Shown here piece by piece: positions 1-51,622 of a stretch of DNA of 64,000 bases. Numbering within the stretch: the stretch's first letter is position 1; the number at the start of each line of letters is the position of its first letter. This stretch comes from Flagellimonas pacifica. GTDB lineage: Bacteria; Bacteroidota; Bacteroidia; Flavobacteriales; Flavobacteriaceae. The notes below the pieces were generated by a model that worked only from the letters and a program-made list of their open reading frames with translations, searched no databases and had not been told where the DNA came from. Made by a program: the position numbers and the translations under genes. Where the stretch lies: NCBI RefSeq assembly GCF_900215465.1, contig NZ_OBEH01000001.1:496001-560000 (forward strand), read 5' to 3'.

Positions 1-774
1 GGTACTATCATTAATAACGTAGAGTTCAAAATAATCATTGCCCAAGAAGTCATAATCCAGTGTTAAAGTTTTGAGTGTTGCGTCATTTGCCACATCAAAA
101 ACTTCATAATCGCCTTCATAATCCCATTGCAAATTCATAATAGCTGTTCCTGACCCATCTACGGATAATCTGAAAAAATCGCCATTATTTCCGGATAAAA
201 ACTGAAGATAATTTTCATCATCAAACTCATTTATTGCACCTAGTTCACTCGTATAGGTTTTTTCCCAAGCATCATATTCCTGCAAAAAATAGTTGATGTT
301 ATCATAGAAAACCATATCATAATCAAAATCATTGCTGTCATACCCCCTTAAAACATATGAGATATTTGATCTTGAATCTTGGAGTTCCAGGGTATTGTTG
401 TTCAAAGCATAAACTTCCAACAACCAAAGGCCATCTACTTCATGGTCAATTTCCACAGCAGCATTCAGCGTTCCATAAGAACCAACATCTATACCCAGGC
501 CATTTCCGGTTTTTCCAATACCCACCATATTATTATTTGCGTATACCACTCCTCTGTTAAAAGAAATGGTAAATGCACGTTGTAAAAATGGAACCTCCCC
601 CGTTCCTCTTGTTTCATTGATATCTACATACCACAAATCATAAGACTCTAGCACCAAAGCTGTATTTAATGGAGATTCTTCAATAAAATCATCTTCCACA
701 ACAACTTCTGTGTAGCAAGAGGTGGCCAAAATCCCTATCAATAAAATTCCTAAGAGTAGTTTTCCATTTCCCAT
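1..774 (-). CDS. Putative lipoprotein, C-terminus outside window
   Basis: A reading frame of 258 codons runs from an ATG at 774 to the window edge without a stop, so the gene is partial. The N-terminus is a lipoprotein signal: a short charged start, a hydrophobic stretch LLLGILLIGILATSC and a lipobox cysteine at about residue 20, followed by acidic residues (EVVVEDD). The rest is rich in Tyr, Asp and Asn with alternating hydrophobic residues, suggesting a secreted beta-rich domain. It matches the look of a conserved flavobacterial lipoprotein family of unknown function. It is transcribed away from gpsA across a 123-bp divergent spacer. Confidence 0.8.
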   Translation of the reverse strand, partial: MGNGKLLLGILLIGILATSCYTEVVVEDDFIEESPLNTALVLESYDLWYVDINETRGTGEVPFLQRAFTISFNRGVVYANNNMVGIGKTGNGLGIDVGSYGTLNAAVEIDHEVDGLWLLEVYALNNNTLELQDSRSNISYVLRGYDSNDFDYDMVFYDNINYFLQEYDAWEKTYTSELGAINEFDDENYLQFLSGNNGDFFRLSVDGSGTAIMNLQWDYEGDYEVFDVANDATLKTLTLDYDFLGNDYFELYVINDST

Positions 775-872
775 AACCTTGGTTTTTGATTCCCTTAATC
801 TAAACCAAGCACCATGCCAAAAAATGTAATTTACTGACAATCAAACAATAATGATTCATCTGATTTATTTTT

Positions 873-880
873 TAGCTTTG
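873..880 (+). promoter_or_regulatory. -7 promoter element of gpsA
   Basis: TAGCTTTG is an exact match to the Bacteroidota -7 consensus TAnnTTTG and ends 17 nt before the gpsA ATG. No clear -33 TTG is visible at the right distance, so this rests on the -7 box alone. Confidence 0.5.
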
Positions 881-897
881 CTGCCTAAAGTCTATTG

Positions 898-1902
898 ATG
901 GAGGAAGGTAAACTTAGGTTTGGTGTATTGGGAGGTGGTAGCTGGGGAACCGCTATAGTTAAAATGCTCTCTGAAAATTTAGAGCATATTTCCTGGTATA
1001 TGCGAAATGAATCAGCGATTCGACATTTAAAGGTTGAGGGGCATAACCCAAATTATATCAGCTCCGTTCAATTTGATGTTTCCAAATTTTTGTTAAGCAA
1101 TGATATCAATGAAGTGGTCAGTTCATCTGATGTTCTCATTTTTGCCATTCCATCAGCTTTTTTAGAGAATGAGCTTCAAAGACTTAGCGTATCTCTCTCA
1201 GATAAAATAATTTTTTCCGCCATTAAGGGAATTGTCCCAGAGAGTGGTTTAATCGTTGGCGAACACTTTCATGATTATTACCAAATTCCCTTTAAAAATA
1301 TTGGTGTCTTAACTGGTCCTTGCCATGCGGAAGAGGTGGCCATGGAGCGTTTATCCTATCTTACCATCGCTTGTGCGGATTCATCTAAAGCCGAATTGGT
1401 GGCTAAAGTGTTGAAAAGTGACTATATCCGAACAAAAATTTCTGATGATATTATTGGCACTGAATATGCAGCCATGTTAAAGAATATTTACGCCATTGCA
1501 GCTGGAATTGCACATGGCTTGGGATATGGTGATAATTTCCAGAGCGTACTGATGAGCAATGCCATCAGAGAAATGAAACGGTTCATTGATAAAGTATATA
1601 AAATGAAGCGTAACATCAACAACTCAGCATACTTGGGTGATCTTTTGGTGACTGGTTATTCCACTTTTAGCCGTAACCGTATGTTTGGGAATATGATTGG
1701 CAAAGGCTATACGGTAAAAAGCGCCATGATGGAGATGAACATGGTTGCAGAAGGTTATTATGCCACCAAAAGCGCTCATTTACTTCATGAAAAGTTGAAA
1801 AAAAAATCAAAGACACCGATAATCAATGCTGTATACAATATCCTCTACGAAGAAAAAAATCCTAAAAAGGTTTTCAAAAAACTGACGGAAAAGCTGGATT
1901 AA
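898..1902 (+). CDS. gpsA: NAD(P)H-dependent glycerol-3-phosphate dehydrogenase
   Basis: This enzyme reduces dihydroxyacetone phosphate to sn-glycerol-3-phosphate in the cytoplasm, the entry to phospholipid synthesis. The N-terminal Rossmann motif GVLGGGSWGTA is at residues 9-19. LTGPCHAEEVA and EYAAMLKNIYAIAAGIAHGL carry the catalytic-lysine region, and GDLLVTGYSTFSRNRMFG is the family's C-terminal signature. The length of 334 residues is normal for GpsA. A TTG lies one codon upstream (895), but the ATG at 898 is the better start. glpD, which runs the reverse reaction, lies 2.2 kb downstream. Confidence 0.95.
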   Translation: MEEGKLRFGVLGGGSWGTAIVKMLSENLEHISWYMRNESAIRHLKVEGHNPNYISSVQFDVSKFLLSNDINEVVSSSDVLIFAIPSAFLENELQRLSVSLSDKIIFSAIKGIVPESGLIVGEHFHDYYQIPFKNIGVLTGPCHAEEVAMERLSYLTIACADSSKAELVAKVLKSDYIRTKISDDIIGTEYAAMLKNIYAIAAGIAHGLGYGDNFQSVLMSNAIREMKRFIDKVYKMKRNINNSAYLGDLLVTGYSTFSRNRMFGNMIGKGYTVKSAMMEMNMVAEGYYATKSAHLLHEKLKKKSKTPIINAVYNILYEEKNPKKVFKKLTEKLD

Positions 1903-1904
1903 AG

Positions 1905-2657
1905 CTAATTTAAAAGGACCTCATCCGTAACGCTTTTTCCTCTGGGAATGGAATTGTCCAGAACATCAATTGTCATAGCATCATAAGATTTTATATATGC
2001 CCTGTTAACGATATAGGATTTGTGAACTCGCCTAAAATTATCTGGTAATTGTTGTAACGTTCCTTTTATACTTCCATAACTGGTTATTTTGGATTTATCC
2101 ACCAGGTGATAGGTAACATAATTACCAAGGCCTTCCACAAAAAGGATATTCTCCGTAGGTACGCGATGTGTTTTTCTATTGGACCGTATTTCCAATATTT
2201 CGTTTTCCAAACCTTCGTTTTTTTCATTTTCCATAACCCAAAGCTGAAATAACTTAACCCCAAGAATCAGCAATACCGTGGTGTTAATCAACACAATGGC
2301 CCTTACCAACATCATAACACTAAACAATCCTGAACTGGAATCGTTCAACAACAATTCCTCATAAAAAAGATGAATAAAAACCCGTTGCAATATTCCGCCC
2401 AACAACAATGTGAGGCCATATCCTATAAAAAAGTTCAAGAACTTTCGCTTCAGCAAAAAACGGGGCAATAAAAAATAGATGGTGACATAAACCGCCAGAA
2501 TTCGAATTGGAAGCAACACAAATTCCAAATAAAAAGAGGCCAAGTAGCCTTTATCGCCCACCCAAATCAATCCAAACAAAACATAGTACAATACCCAAAA
2601 AATGGCATGCGTAGCAATCCTTGAATTGAATAGATAGAAATTAGTTGCTGATTTCAT
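1905..2657 (-). CDS. Membrane-anchored LytTR-type DNA-binding regulator
   Basis: The N-terminal half (residues about 15-140) has four hydrophobic segments that look like transmembrane helices. The C-terminal half (about 150-250) is a LytTR DNA-binding domain, with the typical ILFVEGLGNYVTYHL and FRRVHKSYIVNRAYI motifs. There is no receiver or kinase domain, so it is a one-component membrane regulator rather than a classical response regulator. The ATG at 2657 is preferred; a TTG ten codons upstream is possible. It is divergent from the PDZ-hydrolase gene across 124 bp, which makes that gene a candidate target (inference). It ends 2 bp after convergent gpsA. Confidence 0.85.
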   Translation of the reverse strand: MKSATNFYLFNSRIATHAIFWVLYYVLFGLIWVGDKGYLASFYLEFVLLPIRILAVYVTIYFLLPRFLLKRKFLNFFIGYGLTLLLGGILQRVFIHLFYEELLLNDSSSGLFSVMMLVRAIVLINTTVLLILGVKLFQLWVMENEKNEGLENEILEIRSNRKTHRVPTENILFVEGLGNYVTYHLVDKSKITSYGSIKGTLQQLPDNFRRVHKSYIVNRAYIKSYDAMTIDVLDNSIPRGKSVTDEVLLN

Positions 2658-2781
2658 GATTTTAAAATTCCATACATCATTGTTCAAGGTTCATTCATAT
2701 AAAAAATGGCTTTCTACGTATAAATTCCCTCTCAGCTAAAAATAGGCAATCTAATTTTAAAGAAAACTTAAATCCATAATC

Positions 2782-4107
2782 ATGAAATCAAAAAACGGTT
2801 TATTCCTATTAAGTGTTCTTACCTTATTTTCAACACTAAGTGTCACATCTCAAATTCTGGGAAGAAGAAGCTCATGGGAAGCAAAAATAAATGGCCCAAA
2901 TGGGAATACTCCAGGAGTTACCATAGCGGAGTTAAACAAGAATAGCCCTTTGGAAAAAGCAGGTTTCCTTACCAATGATGTAATAGTTGAAGTTGATGAT
3001 ATTTTAATAAAGGATGGTGAAGTTTGGAGCGATACTTCCTATGGTCTTAGGTCCAATACTCCAACCAAGGTCAAAGCCATCCGAAATGGAAAAATGGTTG
3101 AGGCAATCGTTCAATTTAATCCTTTGGAAAAGGAAAACCATACAGAATTGGATACCTTTTATGAAGAAGTAACCAGTCCGTACGGTATTACCCAAAGAAT
3201 CATTATTACCAAACCCAAAAAGTCAGGAAAACAACCTGCTATTGTTTTAATAGGAGGACTAAGTTGTTCCAGTATTGAAACATATCCTGGCAGGAAGGGG
3301 AATTGGGTACAGACCATAAAAGATCTGGTTGAAAAATCAGGAATGGTAGTTATGCGAATTGAAAAACCCGGGGTTGGGGACAGCGAGGGGAATTGCGGTC
3401 AATCTGATTTTTTGACAGACATTGCTGGTTTTAGGGCGGCCATTAAAAATTTAAAGTCAAAATCGTATGTTGATACTTCAAAAATTGTGGTCTACGGTTC
3501 CAGTATGGGGAGTGCTTTGGCTCCGCTTTTTGCCAATGAATTTGACCTGGCCGGGGTTATCTCAGATGGGACTTTTTTTAAAACGTGGTACGAGCATATG
3601 TTAGAGATTGAACGTCGTTTACTTCAATTTAGGGGCAATACGGAATCTCAAATAGTGGAAAAAATGAACAAGTACTATATCCCTTTATATTATGGCATGT
3701 TGATTCAAAAAAAGACCTATCAAGAAGTGGTTAATGAATATCCTTCCCTGGCAGATTACAATTATCACTCTGCAGCACACATGTATGGAAGGCCAATGGC
3801 CTACTATCAACAATTGCAAGATTTTGACTTGGCAGGCCAATGGGAGAAAATAAAAGTACCTGTGCGGATTTTGCGCGGCACCAACGATTGGATCATGTCT
3901 TCTTTTGACAATAAAATGATTATCGACGTTTTGAAAAGAAATGGACACCAGGATCATCTTTTATATGAGTACCCCGGTTTAGATCACTGGAACACCATAC
4001 ACGAATCTCCTAAAAACTCATTTGAAGGAAAACCGGGCAAATGGGATGAGGGCACCATCAACCTAGTAATAAAATGGGCCCAAGAAATGGTAGGGTTAAC
4101 ATCCTAA
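2782..4107 (+). CDS. Secreted PDZ-alpha/beta hydrolase fusion
   Basis: A signal peptide (about residues 1-23, ending SVTSQ) shows export. Residues about 40-115 form a PDZ-like domain (GVTIAELNKNSPLEKAGF, then DVIVEVDD). Residues about 125-440 form an alpha/beta hydrolase: the nucleophile elbow GSSMGS, a late acid in RGTNDWI and the catalytic histidine in GLDHW. This is a serine hydrolase/peptidase of the dienelactone hydrolase/S9 type; the substrate cannot be read from sequence. The coding end overlaps the convergent glpD end by a few bases. Confidence 0.85.
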   Translation: MKSKNGLFLLSVLTLFSTLSVTSQILGRRSSWEAKINGPNGNTPGVTIAELNKNSPLEKAGFLTNDVIVEVDDILIKDGEVWSDTSYGLRSNTPTKVKAIRNGKMVEAIVQFNPLEKENHTELDTFYEEVTSPYGITQRIIITKPKKSGKQPAIVLIGGLSCSSIETYPGRKGNWVQTIKDLVEKSGMVVMRIEKPGVGDSEGNCGQSDFLTDIAGFRAAIKNLKSKSYVDTSKIVVYGSSMGSALAPLFANEFDLAGVISDGTFFKTWYEHMLEIERRLLQFRGNTESQIVEKMNKYYIPLYYGMLIQKKTYQEVVNEYPSLADYNYHSAAHMYGRPMAYYQQLQDFDLAGQWEKIKVPVRILRGTNDWIMSSFDNKMIIDVLKRNGHQDHLLYEYPGLDHWNTIHESPKNSFEGKPGKWDEGTINLVIKWAQEMVGLTS

Positions 4108-5771
4108 TTACGTTCTAGGGAAAAGTTGGAGTGGGATATTATCTCTTTTTTCAATTTTTCCCTAAAAGAATTGATTTCATCATCGCTGTAGCCGTATGTT
4201 TTTTTGAATTCTTCCAAAACCGGTTCCATGTAGTTGCGCACACTGTCAATATCAAAATACAACATTCCGGTTCTTCTGATGAAGAAATCCATGGGATTGA
4301 GTGCCATTTCGTGGTCAATACAGAACAACGCTTCGGCACATATCAATTTAACCTTGGCATCCGCTCCGTTCAATGACGCATAGTTTTCCAAAATCACTTC
4401 TACTTGTTTTCCATATGTGGTAACCAGATACCATGCGTCGTACTCCGTAAATCTATCATCTTTTAAGCGGCTAAAAACTTGACTAATACATTTTTTAACA
4501 TGCTTGTATTTTTTAAAATCACTTCCACAAAGTGGGATTTTATCCGTAGTACATTCAGAGATTTGGGCTCCATGATCTTCCTCCATGGACTTGACTATGC
4601 GATCAACCGCCCTTTCGGCCATTTTTCGATATCCCGTAAGCTTACCCCCTGCTATGCTTACAAGGCCTGTGTCCGAAGTAAAGATTTCATCTTTCCTGGA
4701 AAGTTCGGATGCCGATTTCCCTTCTTCATGAATCAAAGGACGTAGACCTGCCCATGAAGAAATAATATCGTTCATCTCCAGATTGATGGAAGGAAACATA
4801 TTGTTCACGGCTGAAATCAAGTAGATGGCATCTGCCAAATCGGTTTTAATATTGTCCTTGTCCAGATTGAAATTTGTATCGGTTGTGCCTACATAGGTAA
4901 CCTTTCCCCGGGGTATGGCAAACATCATTCTTCCATCGGGAATATCAAAATATACAGATTGTTTTACTGGAAGTTTCTCCTTTGGAAAGACCAAATGCAC
5001 TCCTTTGGTCAAATGCAACCGTTTTCCCTTTTTGGAATTGTTCAAGCTACGCAGTTCATCAACCCAAGGCCCAGCAGCGCTTATAACATATTTGGACTTT
5101 ATACTGATCTTCTTGCCAGAAACCTCATCTTTGACCCTAACACCTGCCACTTTTTCATTTTCATAAATGAAATCCACAACTTTTGCATAGTTCAACGCTT
5201 TAGCGCCAAACTGTAAACTGGTTTTAATATTTTCAATGGTCAATCTGGCATCGTCGGTTCTGTATTCTGCATAATATCCAGCTCCATTCAGAATTTTTTT
5301 AGGTAAAAGCGGTTCCAATTTCATTGCCTCTTTTTTCTCCAGCATCCGACGTTTATCATCTCCTGAAACCTGTGCAAGAATATCATAGACCTTCAGGCCA
5401 ATTGAAGTTAACCACTTACCATAAGAGCCGCCTTCTATTAAGGGCAACAACATTTTTTCTGGTAAGACCAAATGAGGGGCCAATTTGTGTACAATGGCTC
5501 TTTCTGAGCCGACTTCTTTTACCAGCCAAAAATCGAATTGTTTTAAATATCTAAGGCCTCCGTGAATTAATTTAGTTGATTTACTACTAGTGCCAGACGC
5601 AAAATCGTCTTTCTCCAACAACAAAGTTTTCAAACCCCTTGAGGCCGAATCCAAAGCAATCCCACCTCCAGTAATTCCACCACCAATTACAATGAGGTCA
5701 TAGGTTTCTTCTTCTACTTTTCGAATGGTTTCTCTTCGGTCCAGATTGGAAAATCTGATGTACTTTTTCAT
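4104..5771 (-). CDS. glpD: FAD-dependent glycerol-3-phosphate dehydrogenase
   Basis: GlpD oxidises glycerol-3-phosphate to dihydroxyacetone phosphate at the membrane and passes electrons to the quinone pool. The FAD-binding motif DLIVIGGGITGGG is at residues 25-37. It is followed by ASRGLKTLLLEKDDFASGTS and the family signature STKLIHGGLRYL, and the C-terminal DAO_C domain is present; 555 residues is usual. A TTG five codons upstream gives a longer frame, but the ATG at 5771 matches the usual N-terminus. Its stop codon overlaps that of the convergent hydrolase. Confidence 0.95.
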   Translation of the reverse strand: MKKYIRFSNLDRRETIRKVEEETYDLIVIGGGITGGGIALDSASRGLKTLLLEKDDFASGTSSKSTKLIHGGLRYLKQFDFWLVKEVGSERAIVHKLAPHLVLPEKMLLPLIEGGSYGKWLTSIGLKVYDILAQVSGDDKRRMLEKKEAMKLEPLLPKKILNGAGYYAEYRTDDARLTIENIKTSLQFGAKALNYAKVVDFIYENEKVAGVRVKDEVSGKKISIKSKYVISAAGPWVDELRSLNNSKKGKRLHLTKGVHLVFPKEKLPVKQSVYFDIPDGRMMFAIPRGKVTYVGTTDTNFNLDKDNIKTDLADAIYLISAVNNMFPSINLEMNDIISSWAGLRPLIHEEGKSASELSRKDEIFTSDTGLVSIAGGKLTGYRKMAERAVDRIVKSMEEDHGAQISECTTDKIPLCGSDFKKYKHVKKCISQVFSRLKDDRFTEYDAWYLVTTYGKQVEVILENYASLNGADAKVKLICAEALFCIDHEMALNPMDFFIRRTGMLYFDIDSVRNYMEPVLEEFKKTYGYSDDEINSFREKLKKEIISHSNFSLERN

Positions 5772-48454: not shown

Positions 48455-50353
48455 ATGAGTGATGCGATTAAGCACGAATGCGGAATATCAATGATCCGTT
48501 TGCTTAAACCCTTAGAGTATTACAAAGAAAAGTACGGTACAGCTTTTTATGGAGTGAACAAAATGTACCTTATGATGGAAAAACAGCACAATAGAGGACA
48601 GGATGGTGCTGGTTTTGCAAGTATAAAACTGGACATGAATGCCGGGGAGCGCTACATGAGTAGGGTACGTTCCGCACAACAGCAACCCATTCAGGATATC
48701 TTTGCCCAAATCAACGACAGGATCAATACTGCTATTGAGCAAAACCCTGAATATGAAAACGATGTCGCCCTTCAAAAAAAGAACATTCCGTATATAGGGG
48801 AATTATTGATGGGCCATGTTAGATATGGAACCTTTGGGAAAAACAGCATCGAAAGTGTTCATCCATTTCTACGTCAGAATAATTGGATGCACCGTAACCT
48901 TATTGTTGCAGGTAATTTCAACCTAACAAATGTCAACGAGCTTTTCAATAATCTGGTAGAATTGGGACAACACCCCAAAGAGTTGGCAGATACCGTTACC
49001 GTAATGGAAAAAATCGGCCATTTTTTGGACGATGCAGTAGCCAAACTCTACAAGCAGATAAAAAAGGAGGGGCATAATAAAAGGGAAGCATCCCCTTTAA
49101 TTGCAGAGCGATTGAATGTTGCCAAAATATTGAGAAAAGCTTCCAAGAATTGGGATGGTGGATATACCATGGGAGGCCTTTTAGGACATGGCGATGGATT
49201 TGTGGTAAGAGATCCAGCGGGAATCAGACCTGCATATTTTTATAAAGATGATGAAATTGTGGTAGTGGCATCAGAGCGACCAGTTATCCAAACCGTATTC
49301 AATGTTCCTTATGAAAATGTTCATGAATTAGACCCAGGACATGCCCTCATCATAAAGAAAAGCGGCACCACCCGCATTGAGCAAATCAAAGAACCAGTTG
49401 AGCGAAAGGCCTGCTCCTTTGAACGCATTTATTTTTCAAGGGGAAGTGACAAGGAAATCTACCAAGAAAGAAAGATGCTTGGAAAATTAGTATTCCCTCA
49501 AATTTTAAAATCTATTGATGACGATTTGAGCAATACTGTTTTTTCATACATTCCCAATACAGCCGAAACTTCCTTCTTTGGAATGGTGAAAGAGGCTCAG
49601 AATTATCTTAACAAAAGAAAGGAGGAGCAAATTCTAGCTCTTGGACCAAATATTACTGGAGAAGAACTCCATAGAATTTTGGCCGTAAGACCTCGTATTG
49701 AAAAAGTAGCCATTAAGGACGCCAAGTTACGTACGTTCATTACCCAAGATAGTAGCAGGGACGATTTAGTGGCCCATGTCTATGACATCTCTTATGGTTC
49801 TGTGAAGAAAAATGACAACCTTGTTATTATTGATGACAGTATAGTGAGAGGAACAACCTTAAAAAAGAGTATCCTTAAAATTCTAGATAGGTTATCCCCT
49901 AAGAAAATCATAGTAGTCTCCTCCGCCCCACAGATTAGATATCCAGATTGTTATGGTATTGACATGGCCAAGCTGGAAGACTTTGTCGCCTTTAAAGCTG
50001 CACAGGCCCTACACGAAGACCATGGAACCACACATAAGATAAAAGAGATTTATGAAAAGTGTTTGACCCAGACAGAATCAAAGGATAAAGAGGTGGTGAA
50101 TTACGTTCAGGAGTTTTATGCTCCGTTCACTGCTGATCAAATCTCTAAAAAGATTGCAGAAATACTCAGTCCCGAAGGAATAAATGCAGAGGTGGACATT
50201 ATTTACCAAACTATTGAAAACCTACATGAGGCATGTCCTAAAAACTTAGGCGATTGGTATTTCACCGGCAACTATCCCACTCCAGGCGGAAATAGAGTGG
50301 TAAACAAGGCTTTCATCAACTTTTATGAAGGAAAGAACGAAAGAGCTTATTGA
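48455..50353 (+). CDS. purF: Amidophosphoribosyltransferase, long Bacteroidota form
   Basis: A 632-residue class II glutamine amidotransferase fused to a phosphoribosyltransferase, the first committed step of purine synthesis. The candidate N-terminal nucleophile is Cys9 (HECGISMIRL), which would need removal of eight residues. NRGQDGAGFAS, HVRYGTFGKNS and GDGFVVRDPAGIRP follow. The PRPP loop is LVIIDDSIVRGTTL. It is about 130 residues longer than E. coli PurF, with an inserted helical region (about 85-105) and a longer C-terminus. It could be a PurF paralogue. Confidence 0.88.
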   Translation: MSDAIKHECGISMIRLLKPLEYYKEKYGTAFYGVNKMYLMMEKQHNRGQDGAGFASIKLDMNAGERYMSRVRSAQQQPIQDIFAQINDRINTAIEQNPEYENDVALQKKNIPYIGELLMGHVRYGTFGKNSIESVHPFLRQNNWMHRNLIVAGNFNLTNVNELFNNLVELGQHPKELADTVTVMEKIGHFLDDAVAKLYKQIKKEGHNKREASPLIAERLNVAKILRKASKNWDGGYTMGGLLGHGDGFVVRDPAGIRPAYFYKDDEIVVVASERPVIQTVFNVPYENVHELDPGHALIIKKSGTTRIEQIKEPVERKACSFERIYFSRGSDKEIYQERKMLGKLVFPQILKSIDDDLSNTVFSYIPNTAETSFFGMVKEAQNYLNKRKEEQILALGPNITGEELHRILAVRPRIEKVAIKDAKLRTFITQDSSRDDLVAHVYDISYGSVKKNDNLVIIDDSIVRGTTLKKSILKILDRLSPKKIIVVSSAPQIRYPDCYGIDMAKLEDFVAFKAAQALHEDHGTTHKIKEIYEKCLTQTESKDKEVVNYVQEFYAPFTADQISKKIAEILSPEGINAEVDIIYQTIENLHEACPKNLGDWYFTGNYPTPGGNRVVNKAFINFYEGKNERAY

Positions 50354-50385
50354 TTAAGCTTGCATAAATTAAAGTTAATCCGTGC

Positions 50386-50401
50386 ATTTCATCGATGAAA
50401 T
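50386..50401. repeat. Perfect 16-bp palindrome
   Basis: ATTTCATCGATGAAAT lies 33 nt after the purF stop and about 48 nt before the -7 box of the first small RNA. There is no T tract, so an operator is more likely than a terminator. Confidence 0.4.
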
Positions 50402-50449
50402 ACGCAGATTGTCGTGTTTTTGTACATTAGGCAAATGTCGAACCTACTT

Positions 50450-50457
50450 TAGTATTG
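50450..50457 (+). promoter_or_regulatory. -7-like box before small RNA copy 1
   Basis: TAGTATTG differs from TAnnTTTG at one position and abuts the conserved segment. Copy 3 has TAGTTTTG at the same place. Confidence 0.5.
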
Positions 50458-50528
50458 CCATAGCATAAGTAGGTTAAGTTCATGGTAAGATTTGGGGCAA
50501 AAAAGGTGGAAGCTATTCCACCTTTTTT
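50458..50528 (+). ncRNA. Tandem small RNA family, copy 1
   Basis: A 39-nt conserved segment starting CCATAGCATAAGTAGG is followed by a hairpin: seven paired bases (GGTGGAA with TTCCACC) extended by A6/T6, loop GCTA, ending in T6. The layout is promoter box, conserved 5' part and rho-independent terminator, with no room for a normal gene. Copies 2 and 3 keep the 39 nt but change the hairpin sequence while keeping it paired. Confidence 0.75.
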
Positions 50529-50663
50529 ATTTTACGGTAATCCAAGTTTCTCTTCACGTAATCCTTTTCCTTAACAATAGTACTCCCTGCCGACAAGGTT
50601 GGCAATTCAACCAAATAAAAGGGGTTTCGTCTAAAAGCTTTTTCAATAAGGGTCGCCTTGGCT

Positions 50664-50671
50664 TACATTTG
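50664..50671 (+). promoter_or_regulatory. -7 box before small RNA copy 2
   Basis: TACATTTG is an exact TAnnTTTG match, 5 nt before the conserved segment of copy 2. Confidence 0.55.
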
Positions 50672-50676
50672 GAGGA

Positions 50677-50746
50677 CCATAGCATAAGTAGGTTAAGTTC
50701 ATGGTAAGATTTGGGGAAAGAAGGCGGAGTATTCTCCGCCTTCTTT
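50677..50746 (+). ncRNA. Tandem small RNA family, copy 2
   Basis: The conserved segment is identical to copy 1 over CCATAG...GATTTGGGG. The terminator is a perfect 13-bp stem (AAAGAAGGCGGAG with CTCCGCCTTCTTT) and loop TATT, different in sequence from copies 1 and 3. It starts 219 nt after copy 1. The DNA between copies is not conserved. Confidence 0.75.
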
Positions 50747-50860
50747 ATGTTTGAACCTCAAGGATTTATCAAATTTTCCATCCAAAACCTCTTCAGTTTT
50801 TTCTTCAAAACACAAAAATTTCCTCAAAAACTTTTGTTATTTCTCACAATACCAGTAATT

Positions 50861-50868
50861 TAGTTTTG
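50861..50868 (+). promoter_or_regulatory. -7 box before small RNA copy 3
   Basis: TAGTTTTG is an exact TAnnTTTG match directly before the conserved segment; a TTTTG lies 24 nt further upstream. Confidence 0.55.
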
Positions 50869-50940
50869 CCATAGCATAAGTAGGTTAAGTTTATGGTAAG
50901 ATTTGGGACGAAAAGGGTGAGGGCTTCCTCACCCTTTTCT
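50869..50940 (+). ncRNA. Tandem small RNA family, copy 3
   Basis: The conserved segment differs from copies 1 and 2 by a C-to-T change in AAGTTYATGG and at its 3' edge (GGGAC). The hairpin is a perfect 13-bp stem (GAAAAGGGTGAGG with CCTCACCCTTTTC) and loop GCTT. The C-to-T change would extend a CCAT/ATGG pairing within the conserved part to five base pairs. It starts 192 nt after copy 2. Confidence 0.75.
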
Positions 50941-50961
50941 ATTGTAGCCTGTCAAGACAAT

Positions 50962-50996
50962 AAAAAAGGGGTGCCGCTGAGCGGCACCCCTTTTTT
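50962..50996. terminator. Strong bidirectional terminator
   Basis: A6, a perfect 10-bp GC-rich stem (GGGGTGCCGC with GCGGCACCCC), a 3-nt TGA loop and T6. It separates the small RNA array from the convergent sodA gene and can stop both. Confidence 0.9.
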
Positions 50997-51013
50997 AAGC
51001 AGATGTTTTCTAC

Positions 51014-51622
51014 CTATTTATTTGACTTGTAATTTTCAGAAACTTTATCCCAATTGATTACATTGAAGAATGCAGATACATAGTCTGGTCTTCTGTTTTG
51101 GTAATTCAGATAATAGGCGTGCTCCCAAACATCCAATCCAAGGATAGGATGCCCTCCACAATCTATTCCAGGCATTATTGGATTGTCTTGATTGGCAGTT
51201 GAGCAAATTTCAAGTTTTCCTCCTTTGTGAACGCAAAGCCATGCCCAACCAGATCCAAATCGAGTTCCCGCAGCTGCACCGAACTTCTCTTTAAATGCAT
51301 CAAAAGAACCAAAAGCATCATCAATGGCAGTAGCTAGATCTCCACTAGGCGTGCCTCCGCCATTTGGCGACATTACTTCCCAAAAGAGGGCATGGTTATA
51401 AAATCCGCCACCGTTATTTCGTACTGCACCATTGGTCATGTCCAAATTGGATAAAATATCCAAAATATCTTTCCCTTCTAAATCTGTTCCCGCTATGGCA
51501 CCATTCAATTTTGTGGTGTATCCATTATGATGCTTTGTATGGTGTATTTCCATAGTTCTTGCATCTATATGTGGCTCCAAAGCATCATATGCATAGGGTA
51601 AATTAGGTAATTCAAAAGCCAT
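51014..51622 (-). CDS. sodA: Superoxide dismutase, Mn-type features
   Basis: A 202-residue cytoplasmic Fe/Mn superoxide dismutase. Metal ligands are the His in [12 protein letters not shown], the His in [11 protein letters not shown], and the Asp and His in [13 protein letters not shown]. The C-terminal-domain Gln in [10 protein letters not shown] and the GGG before FYNH are typical of manganese-specific or cambialistic enzymes rather than FeSOD. It is monocistronic and ends at the strong terminator. Confidence 0.93.

Follow-up and report, generated by a model that had tools for sequence, protein, structure and literature searches.

The tandem small RNA (sRNA) units described here are probably base-pairing siblings that are titrated by a trans-encoded sponge RNA. 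As predicted from their sequences, the three units would be trans-acting sRNAs of ∼72 nt that are transcribed from separate promoters, end at intrinsic terminators of their own, and pair with their targets via a common head. Another RNA, whose gene lies elsewhere and which is antisense to this head, would titrate all siblings together, and in a second clade of Flavobacteriaceae the sRNA may in addition block translation of a ∼41-aa protein.

Three tandem units between purF and a superoxide dismutase gene

The window, i.e., the whole 64,000-nt stretch of DNA that was analyzed (G000:C5:496001-560000), belongs to a genome of 4.44 Mb. An initial annotation of this stretch had proposed three tandem sRNAs with an almost invariant 39-nt head, CCATAGCATAAGTAGGTTAAGTTYATGGTAAGATTTGGG, and a search with the 39-mer (Y at position 24) recovered all three on the plus strand (Table 1). 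No further match with ≤3 mismatches was present within the window, and 100 dinucleotide shuffles yielded 0 matches. The single C/T difference reported among the heads was likewise found: position 24 is C in copies 1 and 2 and T in copy 3.

Table 1. Features of the sRNA array and its surroundings (positions within the window)
Feature	Position	Strand	Basis or remark
purF (amidophosphoribosyltransferase; presumed), upstream of array	48455..50353	+	ORF of 632 aa
Palindromic box GCATTTCATCGATGAAATACGC upstream of copy 1	50383..50404	.	Possible operator
−7-like box, copy 1 (TACTTTAG)	50445..50452	+	Box 13 nt upstream of head
Head, copy 1, 39 nt	50458..50496	+	39-mer match
Intrinsic terminator hairpin, copy 1	50499..50528	+	13-bp perfect arms
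−7 box, copy 2 (TACATTTG)	50664..50671	+	Box 13 nt upstream of head
Head, copy 2, 39 nt	50677..50715	+	39-mer match
Intrinsic terminator hairpin, copy 2	50717..50746	+	13-bp perfect arms
−7-like box, copy 3 (TAATTTAG)	50856..50863	+	Box 13 nt upstream of head
Head, copy 3, 39 nt, T at position 24	50869..50907	+	39-mer match
Intrinsic terminator hairpin, copy 3	50910..50939	+	13-bp perfect arms
Superoxide dismutase gene (presumed), convergent, downstream of array	51014..51622	−	ORF of 202 aa

Boxes resembling the flavobacterial −7 consensus, given as TAnnTTTG at −12 to −5 in PMC9723704, precede all three copies as annotated, but according to their letters (Table 1) only that of copy 2 is an exact TAnnTTTG. 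The perfect hairpin described behind each head is present in all three copies as a 13-bp inverted repeat with a 4-nt loop, and units of 79 to 81 nt folded better than shuffled sequences (z = −3.3, −4.9, and −4.5). That the stems differ completely in sequence was an overstatement, since an A-rich base and a GG..CC core are common to them; nevertheless, 7 of the 13 terminator pairs change on both sides in 13 aligned units of the genus. The stem itself is kept, in line with the proposed selection on RNA structure, but intrinsic terminators require a stem rather than a particular sequence, so that this says less for a special structure than had been assumed. All 10 pairs of a possible hairpin within the head are invariant across 13 aligned genus units. 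Within the genus, the stretch upstream of copy 3 (positions 50830 to 50863) shows much stronger conservation than the corresponding stretches of copies 1 and 2, as might be expected if the promoter there is regulated. The initial annotation had allowed for the 39-mer being part of a protein gene; the head was found to lie outside protein genes. A viral origin of the head was dropped after two scans of the viral contigs of IMG/VR had given 0 matches.

The array sits between a 632-aa ORF, which we take to be purF, and a convergent 202-aa ORF, presumably a superoxide dismutase (SOD) gene, whose terminator may be an 18-bp inverted repeat at positions 50961 to 50997. A purF-like C terminus was found upstream of the array at 27 of 29 same-genus loci, 27 of 30 wider-clade loci (including the window's own genome), and 19 of 23 diverged loci. 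The corresponding numbers for SOD-like sequence downstream were 22 of 29, 30 of 30, and 16 of 23.

The sRNA family is widespread in the Flavobacteriaceae

The window's genome contains the exact head 22-mer at three places; a fourth site, with 3 mismatches, is not part of any unit. A motif search in relatives detected the exact head 18-mer in 34 of 36 same-genus genomes, in support of the annotated units, and the two genomes without it are 83% and 75% complete. Among 76 genus units from 28 loci (the window's included), selected by the first 23 letters of the head, only two 39-nt forms occurred, with either C (53 units) or T (23 units) at position 24. Model R1, which pairs only the terminator, matched 221 of 249 Flavobacteriaceae genomes at E ≤ 0.01, and strong matches (E ≤ 5.4e-9) were present in 201 of the 249 by our own count. 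The 20 R1 genomes left out had E > 1e-8 and showed mostly bare terminators; one of them, G218, looks real by eye. Carriers among the matches listed were Maribacter, Zobellia, Arenibacter, Cellulophaga, Robiginitalea, Eudoraea, Muriicola, Kordia, Croceivirga, and Leptobacterium, and arrays ranged from one unit to at least six exact ones (in Zobellia uliginosa, among the matches listed). The head has two main forms, that of clade A, the window's clade (..GGTAAGATTTGGG), and that of the second clade, clade B (CCATAACATAAG..GGTAGATTTGGGGC).

Searches of the order (176 genomes) and of the class (198 genomes) yielded no convincing relative beyond the Flavobacteriaceae. Matches from outside the family, at best 41.7 bits (order) and 38.8 bits (class), were rejected as terminator-like with AT-rich heads. 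One match of 37.4 bits (L127, CCATAT..CATGGTAAAT) is an unproven lead for a relative beyond the family.

Comparison with known RNA families

The initial annotation had been unable to assign a family name, and Rfam indeed gave 0 gathering-level matches in the 64,000 bases, Flavo-1 included, which leaves Flavo-1 without support in the window. The strongest subthreshold match was STnc40 (33.7 bits, with 45 needed), mostly to its terminator. CsrB/RsmZ protein-sequestering RNAs carry repeated GGA motifs in loops. A protein-sequestering array, one of the roles originally considered, appears unsupported, as the head contains no GGA and no Csr/Rsm family reached the gathering level in the window, where these families gave terminator-sized matches alone (12.5 and 13.6 bits).

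According to PMC11697453, FopS of Bacteroides (RF04319) comprises multicopy Bacteroidota sRNAs with a terminator and a shared pairing region, and the array, with its three copies, has the FopS feature of several paralogous copies per genome. Membership was rejected on score (best 21.5 bits versus a gathering cutoff of 56), and this cutoff was reached by 0 of 148 phylum genomes, the window's included. The R1 seed of FopS and the head share a 17-column local match with a 2-nt gap (UUCAUGGUA..AGAUUU), a likeness that 158 of 20,000 shuffles equaled when the best of the four forms of the head was used, and 523 to 5,733 with the other forms; these counts are uncorrected for the choice among 4,227 families. 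FopS acts by pairing near start codons (PMC11697453); the UUCAUGG of the head would suit pairing of this kind. Binding by RbpB is a further criterion for FopS membership. The word "sponge" is absent from the main text of that paper.

Rfp RNAs are sRNAs of Flavobacterium psychrophilum that were detected by transcriptome analysis, and one of them, Rfp18, is described as conserved in the genus, with predicted pairing to several mRNAs (PMC9723704). One Rfp RNA of F. psychrophilum may be a member of the family studied here. No description of this RNA or its motif strings was found in the article texts searched.

A conserved antisense element between DUF3078 and hflX-like genes

Genus sites that differ from the head 18-mer by two mismatches pointed to a conserved element, which is flanked by a DUF3078 gene (Pfam, 44.4 bits) and a gene for an hflX-like GTPase (GTP-binding middle region, 88.5 bits). 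In the window's genome, this partner is located outside the window on the minus strand of contig C5 (∼889,560 to 889,700), ∼343 kb from the array. R3, a sequence model of the element, detected it in 34 of 36 same-genus genomes at E < 1e-15 and, by our own count, in 21 of the 247 genomes from the family's other genera at E ≤ 1e-5; the weaker of the 154 R3-matched genomes were left out, as they mostly match the sRNA head itself (model positions ∼6 to 51).

In other genera, the antisense strand carries TTCACAACA-N12-TTCACAACA, an AATTTA block, ∼20 variable bases, and TAnnTTTACA, followed by ∼110 to 190 nt with sites such as CCCCAAATCG..TTGAACTTAACC, CCCAAATCG..TTGACCTA, and AACCTACTT, and then by a terminator. 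These ∼3 sites are complementary to the head, and there the partner is often present in more than one copy per genome. The window's genus has one long site (e.g., TCTACCATAAACTTAACCTACTTAGACCATGG in L236). The paired 9-bp repeats recall LytTR-type regulator sites. Terminator-like hairpins were found on the antisense strand at 23 of 28 loci, on the other strand, past the promoter end, at 3 of 28, and in 34 of 500 random stretches; an earlier scan, which failed to recognize stems reaching into the T-run, had given 14 of 28 versus 1 of 28. The consensus fold of the plus strand is weak (−2.57 kcal/mol), and a 14-aa frame on that strand was dropped, as it is broken in L192 and has a TTG start in L193. 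We infer that both RNAs are transcribed and that they pair in cells.

Sponge-type promoters also precede another conserved short RNA (TTTTTTCATTTTCATATAGTGTTCTCGTAAAAG plus a terminator) at L389 (G000:C7 near 608640), L390, L381, L382, and L383; its transcript shows no pairing with the head. One locus (L443; G252:C5, ∼200738, 201205, and 201670) contains three tandem copies of a sponge-like RNA, ∼466 bases apart.

Predicted pairing between head and partner in clade A

For the window's genome, the predicted duplexes of the partner with copies 1, 2, and 3 had energies of −38.8, −38.8, and −42.9 kcal/mol, and the gain on cofolding with folded partners was −23.5, −23.5, and −27.6 kcal/mol. Pairing with the head beat all 100 dinucleotide shuffles in 21 of 28 clade A RNAs (13 of 20 from other genera and 8 of 8 from the window's genus), while 7 of 28 failed to beat every shuffle. 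The same-genus pairing is not independent evidence because the element was found there through the head's own motif.

The promoter pattern, whose letters hold no complementarity to the head, was present in 38 of 249 genomes versus 9 for the reversed control. Among 34 stretches behind it, ≤2 of 100 shuffles paired as well in 15 of 18 with a second TTCACAACA box and in 2 of 16 without; the pattern had been written after the R3 alignments were viewed, most pairing loci had already been picked up by R3, and only about four pairing stretches were new to it (L386, one of L394, one of L398, and L403). Three transcripts (L381 and both of L400) have both boxes, yet no pairing.

Departures of the sites from perfect complementarity to the head outside the genus, counted in two sets, included 28 and 36 C>T, which keeps a G-U pair, versus 1 and 0 G>A, an excess that is weakened by base composition (24 or 22 C versus 7 G) and by shared ancestry. 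The ratios of A>G to T>C were 22:15 and 9:13, the latter being opposite to the G-U expectation. Within the window's genus, C>T versus G>A was 12:14 and A>G versus T>C was 32:19.

At two loci of the window's clade (L386 and L406), 35- and 33-aa ORFs (MEAQ..RKLFML) lie behind a sponge-type promoter. The leader and AUG of these mRNAs were predicted to pair with the head at −31.1 and −29.6 kcal/mol, and this pairing over the AUG was equaled by 1 and 0 of 200 shuffles. Near-matches to the head's complement also overlap the opening codons of lipoprotein-like genes, or immediately precede them, in three genomes (L144, L147, and L150); these sites are possible mRNA targets of the sRNA, which presumably has further ones.

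Antisense sites in a small-protein mRNA of clade B

The pattern CCCAAATC..CCCAAATC was present in 71 of 249 genomes and its reversed control in 13 (our own count); many of its matches are coding or simple repeats, and the clade B RNAs, with sites such as CCCAAATCTAYCATRAAYTTTAACTTATG, were chosen by eye. All 13 of these RNAs beat all 60 shuffles in pairing with the clade B head (−32 to −51 kcal/mol), but only 9 of the 13 stayed at ≤5% of shuffles when the GATTTGGGG part of the head was masked. This set omits L433, because the head of its genome has diverged, and retains L440, which lacks a full ORF. Each RNA had 3 to 5 sites at −13 kcal/mol or better, a number not beyond that of shuffles (maximum, 3 to 4), whereas site strength was beyond them. 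When sRNA and partner were taken from the same genome, three genomes gave −25.8 to −38.5 kcal/mol.

At 13 of 14 clade B loci, the last sites overlap the start and the "PNLP..PT" codons of a 40- to 57-aa ORF (that of the ∼41-aa protein) with a conserved KKxFML-like tail. Since the mRNA thus carries sites both in its leader and in its initial codons, the sRNA would block translation there. Differences at codon positions 1, 2, and 3 numbered 838, 488, and 1113, as expected of a protein. The small protein had no match in Pfam or NCBIfam, and a protein database held only 4 relatives of one such protein, all without a name. A compact two-site RNA (ACCTACTTATGTTGTTAG, CCCAAATCTA, and a terminator) was noticed at L411, L412, L419, and L447; its pairing with the clade B head is weak, and 6, 18, 9, and 3 of 200 shuffles, respectively, paired as well.

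RNAs of both clades preferred their own clade's head (24 of 28 in clade A and 12 of 13 in clade B), often by <1 kcal/mol, which would suit coevolution, although few positions distinguish the two heads and the loci are related by descent. The candidate complementary RNAs in two clades lend support to the original suggestion that the units are sibling sRNAs with a shared pairing sequence.

Direction of regulation and alternative explanations

Regulation might also run in the reverse direction, with the multisite RNA as a regulated target that the tandem sRNAs mainly silence, as in a threshold or antitoxin-like lock, and with the stand-alone RNAs of the window's clade as further targets or relics. 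The ORF with its KKxFML-like tail at 13 of 14 clade B loci and its protein-like codon differences (838, 488, 1113) would fit such a target, as would the 33- to 35-aa mRNAs that pair over the AUG in two window-clade genomes. However, an ORF of this kind is missing from the partner in the window's genus, which ends in a terminator, and one small mRNA would hardly keep the head fixed family-wide; moreover, the ORF is cut to 25 aa at 1 of the 14 loci (L440), and the small protein has only its 4 database relatives and no Pfam or NCBIfam match. We regard this reversal as unlikely and infer instead that the sRNA is limited by the partner, and not solely the other way round. It is improbable that head and element are same-strand binding sites for one protein, which the arrays would sequester with no RNA-RNA pairing involved. 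The search had picked up the element as a copy of the motif in the same sense, tandem multicopy RNAs can be protein decoys, and a sequence that is constant in loop and stem alike suits a binding site, but the promoter- and terminator-like signals lie on the antisense strand and the clade B sites are antisense within an mRNA. The excess of G-U-keeping C>T over G>A outside the genus also speaks against protein sites, although it is weakened by composition and ancestry, and A>G versus T>C is mixed. Very little credence is given to ordinary tandem copies that serve dosage, with the antisense element being functionally unrelated or an old inverted copy: tandem sRNA copies are common, but here both clades show the complementarity, in RNAs that are built differently, and it sits behind one shared promoter type.

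Titration of sibling sRNAs by a sponge may extend to a family-wide switch, which we consider possible rather than probable. In such a switch, a nearly invariant tandem sRNA would be checked by dedicated multisite antisense RNAs. The antisense RNA would have begun as, or become, an mRNA leader in front of the coding sequence for a small amphipathic peptide, which could be translated only once the sRNA has been depleted. In clade A, the antisense RNA would have turned into a pure sponge, multiplied and equipped with its own promoter with paired 9-bp TTCACAACA repeats 12 bp apart.

Relation to other sibling sRNAs

The LhrC sRNAs of Listeria, which belongs to another phylum, also occur as several near-identical copies placed in tandem; we know of no partner RNA antisense to their shared part. 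In Caulobacter crescentus, the sibling sRNAs SisA to SisD are reported to be inactivated through pairing by a separate noncoding RNA, CrfA (PMC12559287). The two systems are likened by description only, as several siblings plus one separate partner RNA: the array provides at least two sRNAs with one pairing region, and a separate RNA gene complementary to that region is present as a sequence feature. SisA-D/CrfA is alphaproteobacterial, Hfq-studied, and experimentally shown, whereas the flavobacterial system belongs to another phylum and is known from sequence. Unlike SisA to SisD, the siblings here are in tandem with a nearly fixed head, and unlike CrfA, the partner is often multicopy, has ∼3 sites, and is part of a small-protein mRNA in one clade.

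As far as we have found, no circuit of an sRNA and an antisense partner has been described earlier for flavobacteria, and the partner RNA is the candidate new element here, beyond the tandem units themselves. Flavobacteriaceae dominate marine algal-polysaccharide breakdown. To our knowledge, work on posttranscriptional control in Bacteroidota has come almost exclusively from gut Bacteroides, and we know of no well-known RNA chaperone in flavobacteria. An RNA kept letter for letter throughout such a family, together with a deletable partner, would make sRNA networks that operate without such a chaperone directly testable. If true, the passage from an mRNA leader to a stand-alone sponge would show how sponges arise.

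Upstream palindrome and insertions at the array locus

The palindromic box upstream of copy 1, GCATTTCATCGATGAAATACGC, is at a nearly fixed distance from this copy in most clade A loci. Within 200 nt upstream of copy 1, TTCATCGA or its complement occurred in 48 of 57 window-clade rows (3 of the 57 being the window's own locus) and in 0 of 17 clade B rows, with ∼5% expected from its overall frequency in the analyzed DNA. An exact TTCATCGA box precedes no more than 7 of the 28 sponge promoters and 8 of the 13 clade B RNAs, and its distance varies, so that shared control of array and partner is a lead only. In five genomes (L151 and L154, and at the same place in G011, G016, and G017), 2.5 to 8 kb lie between array copies. 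The two inserts inspected (L151 and L154) contain lipoprotein-like ORFs with HExxH-like motifs, as judged by eye.
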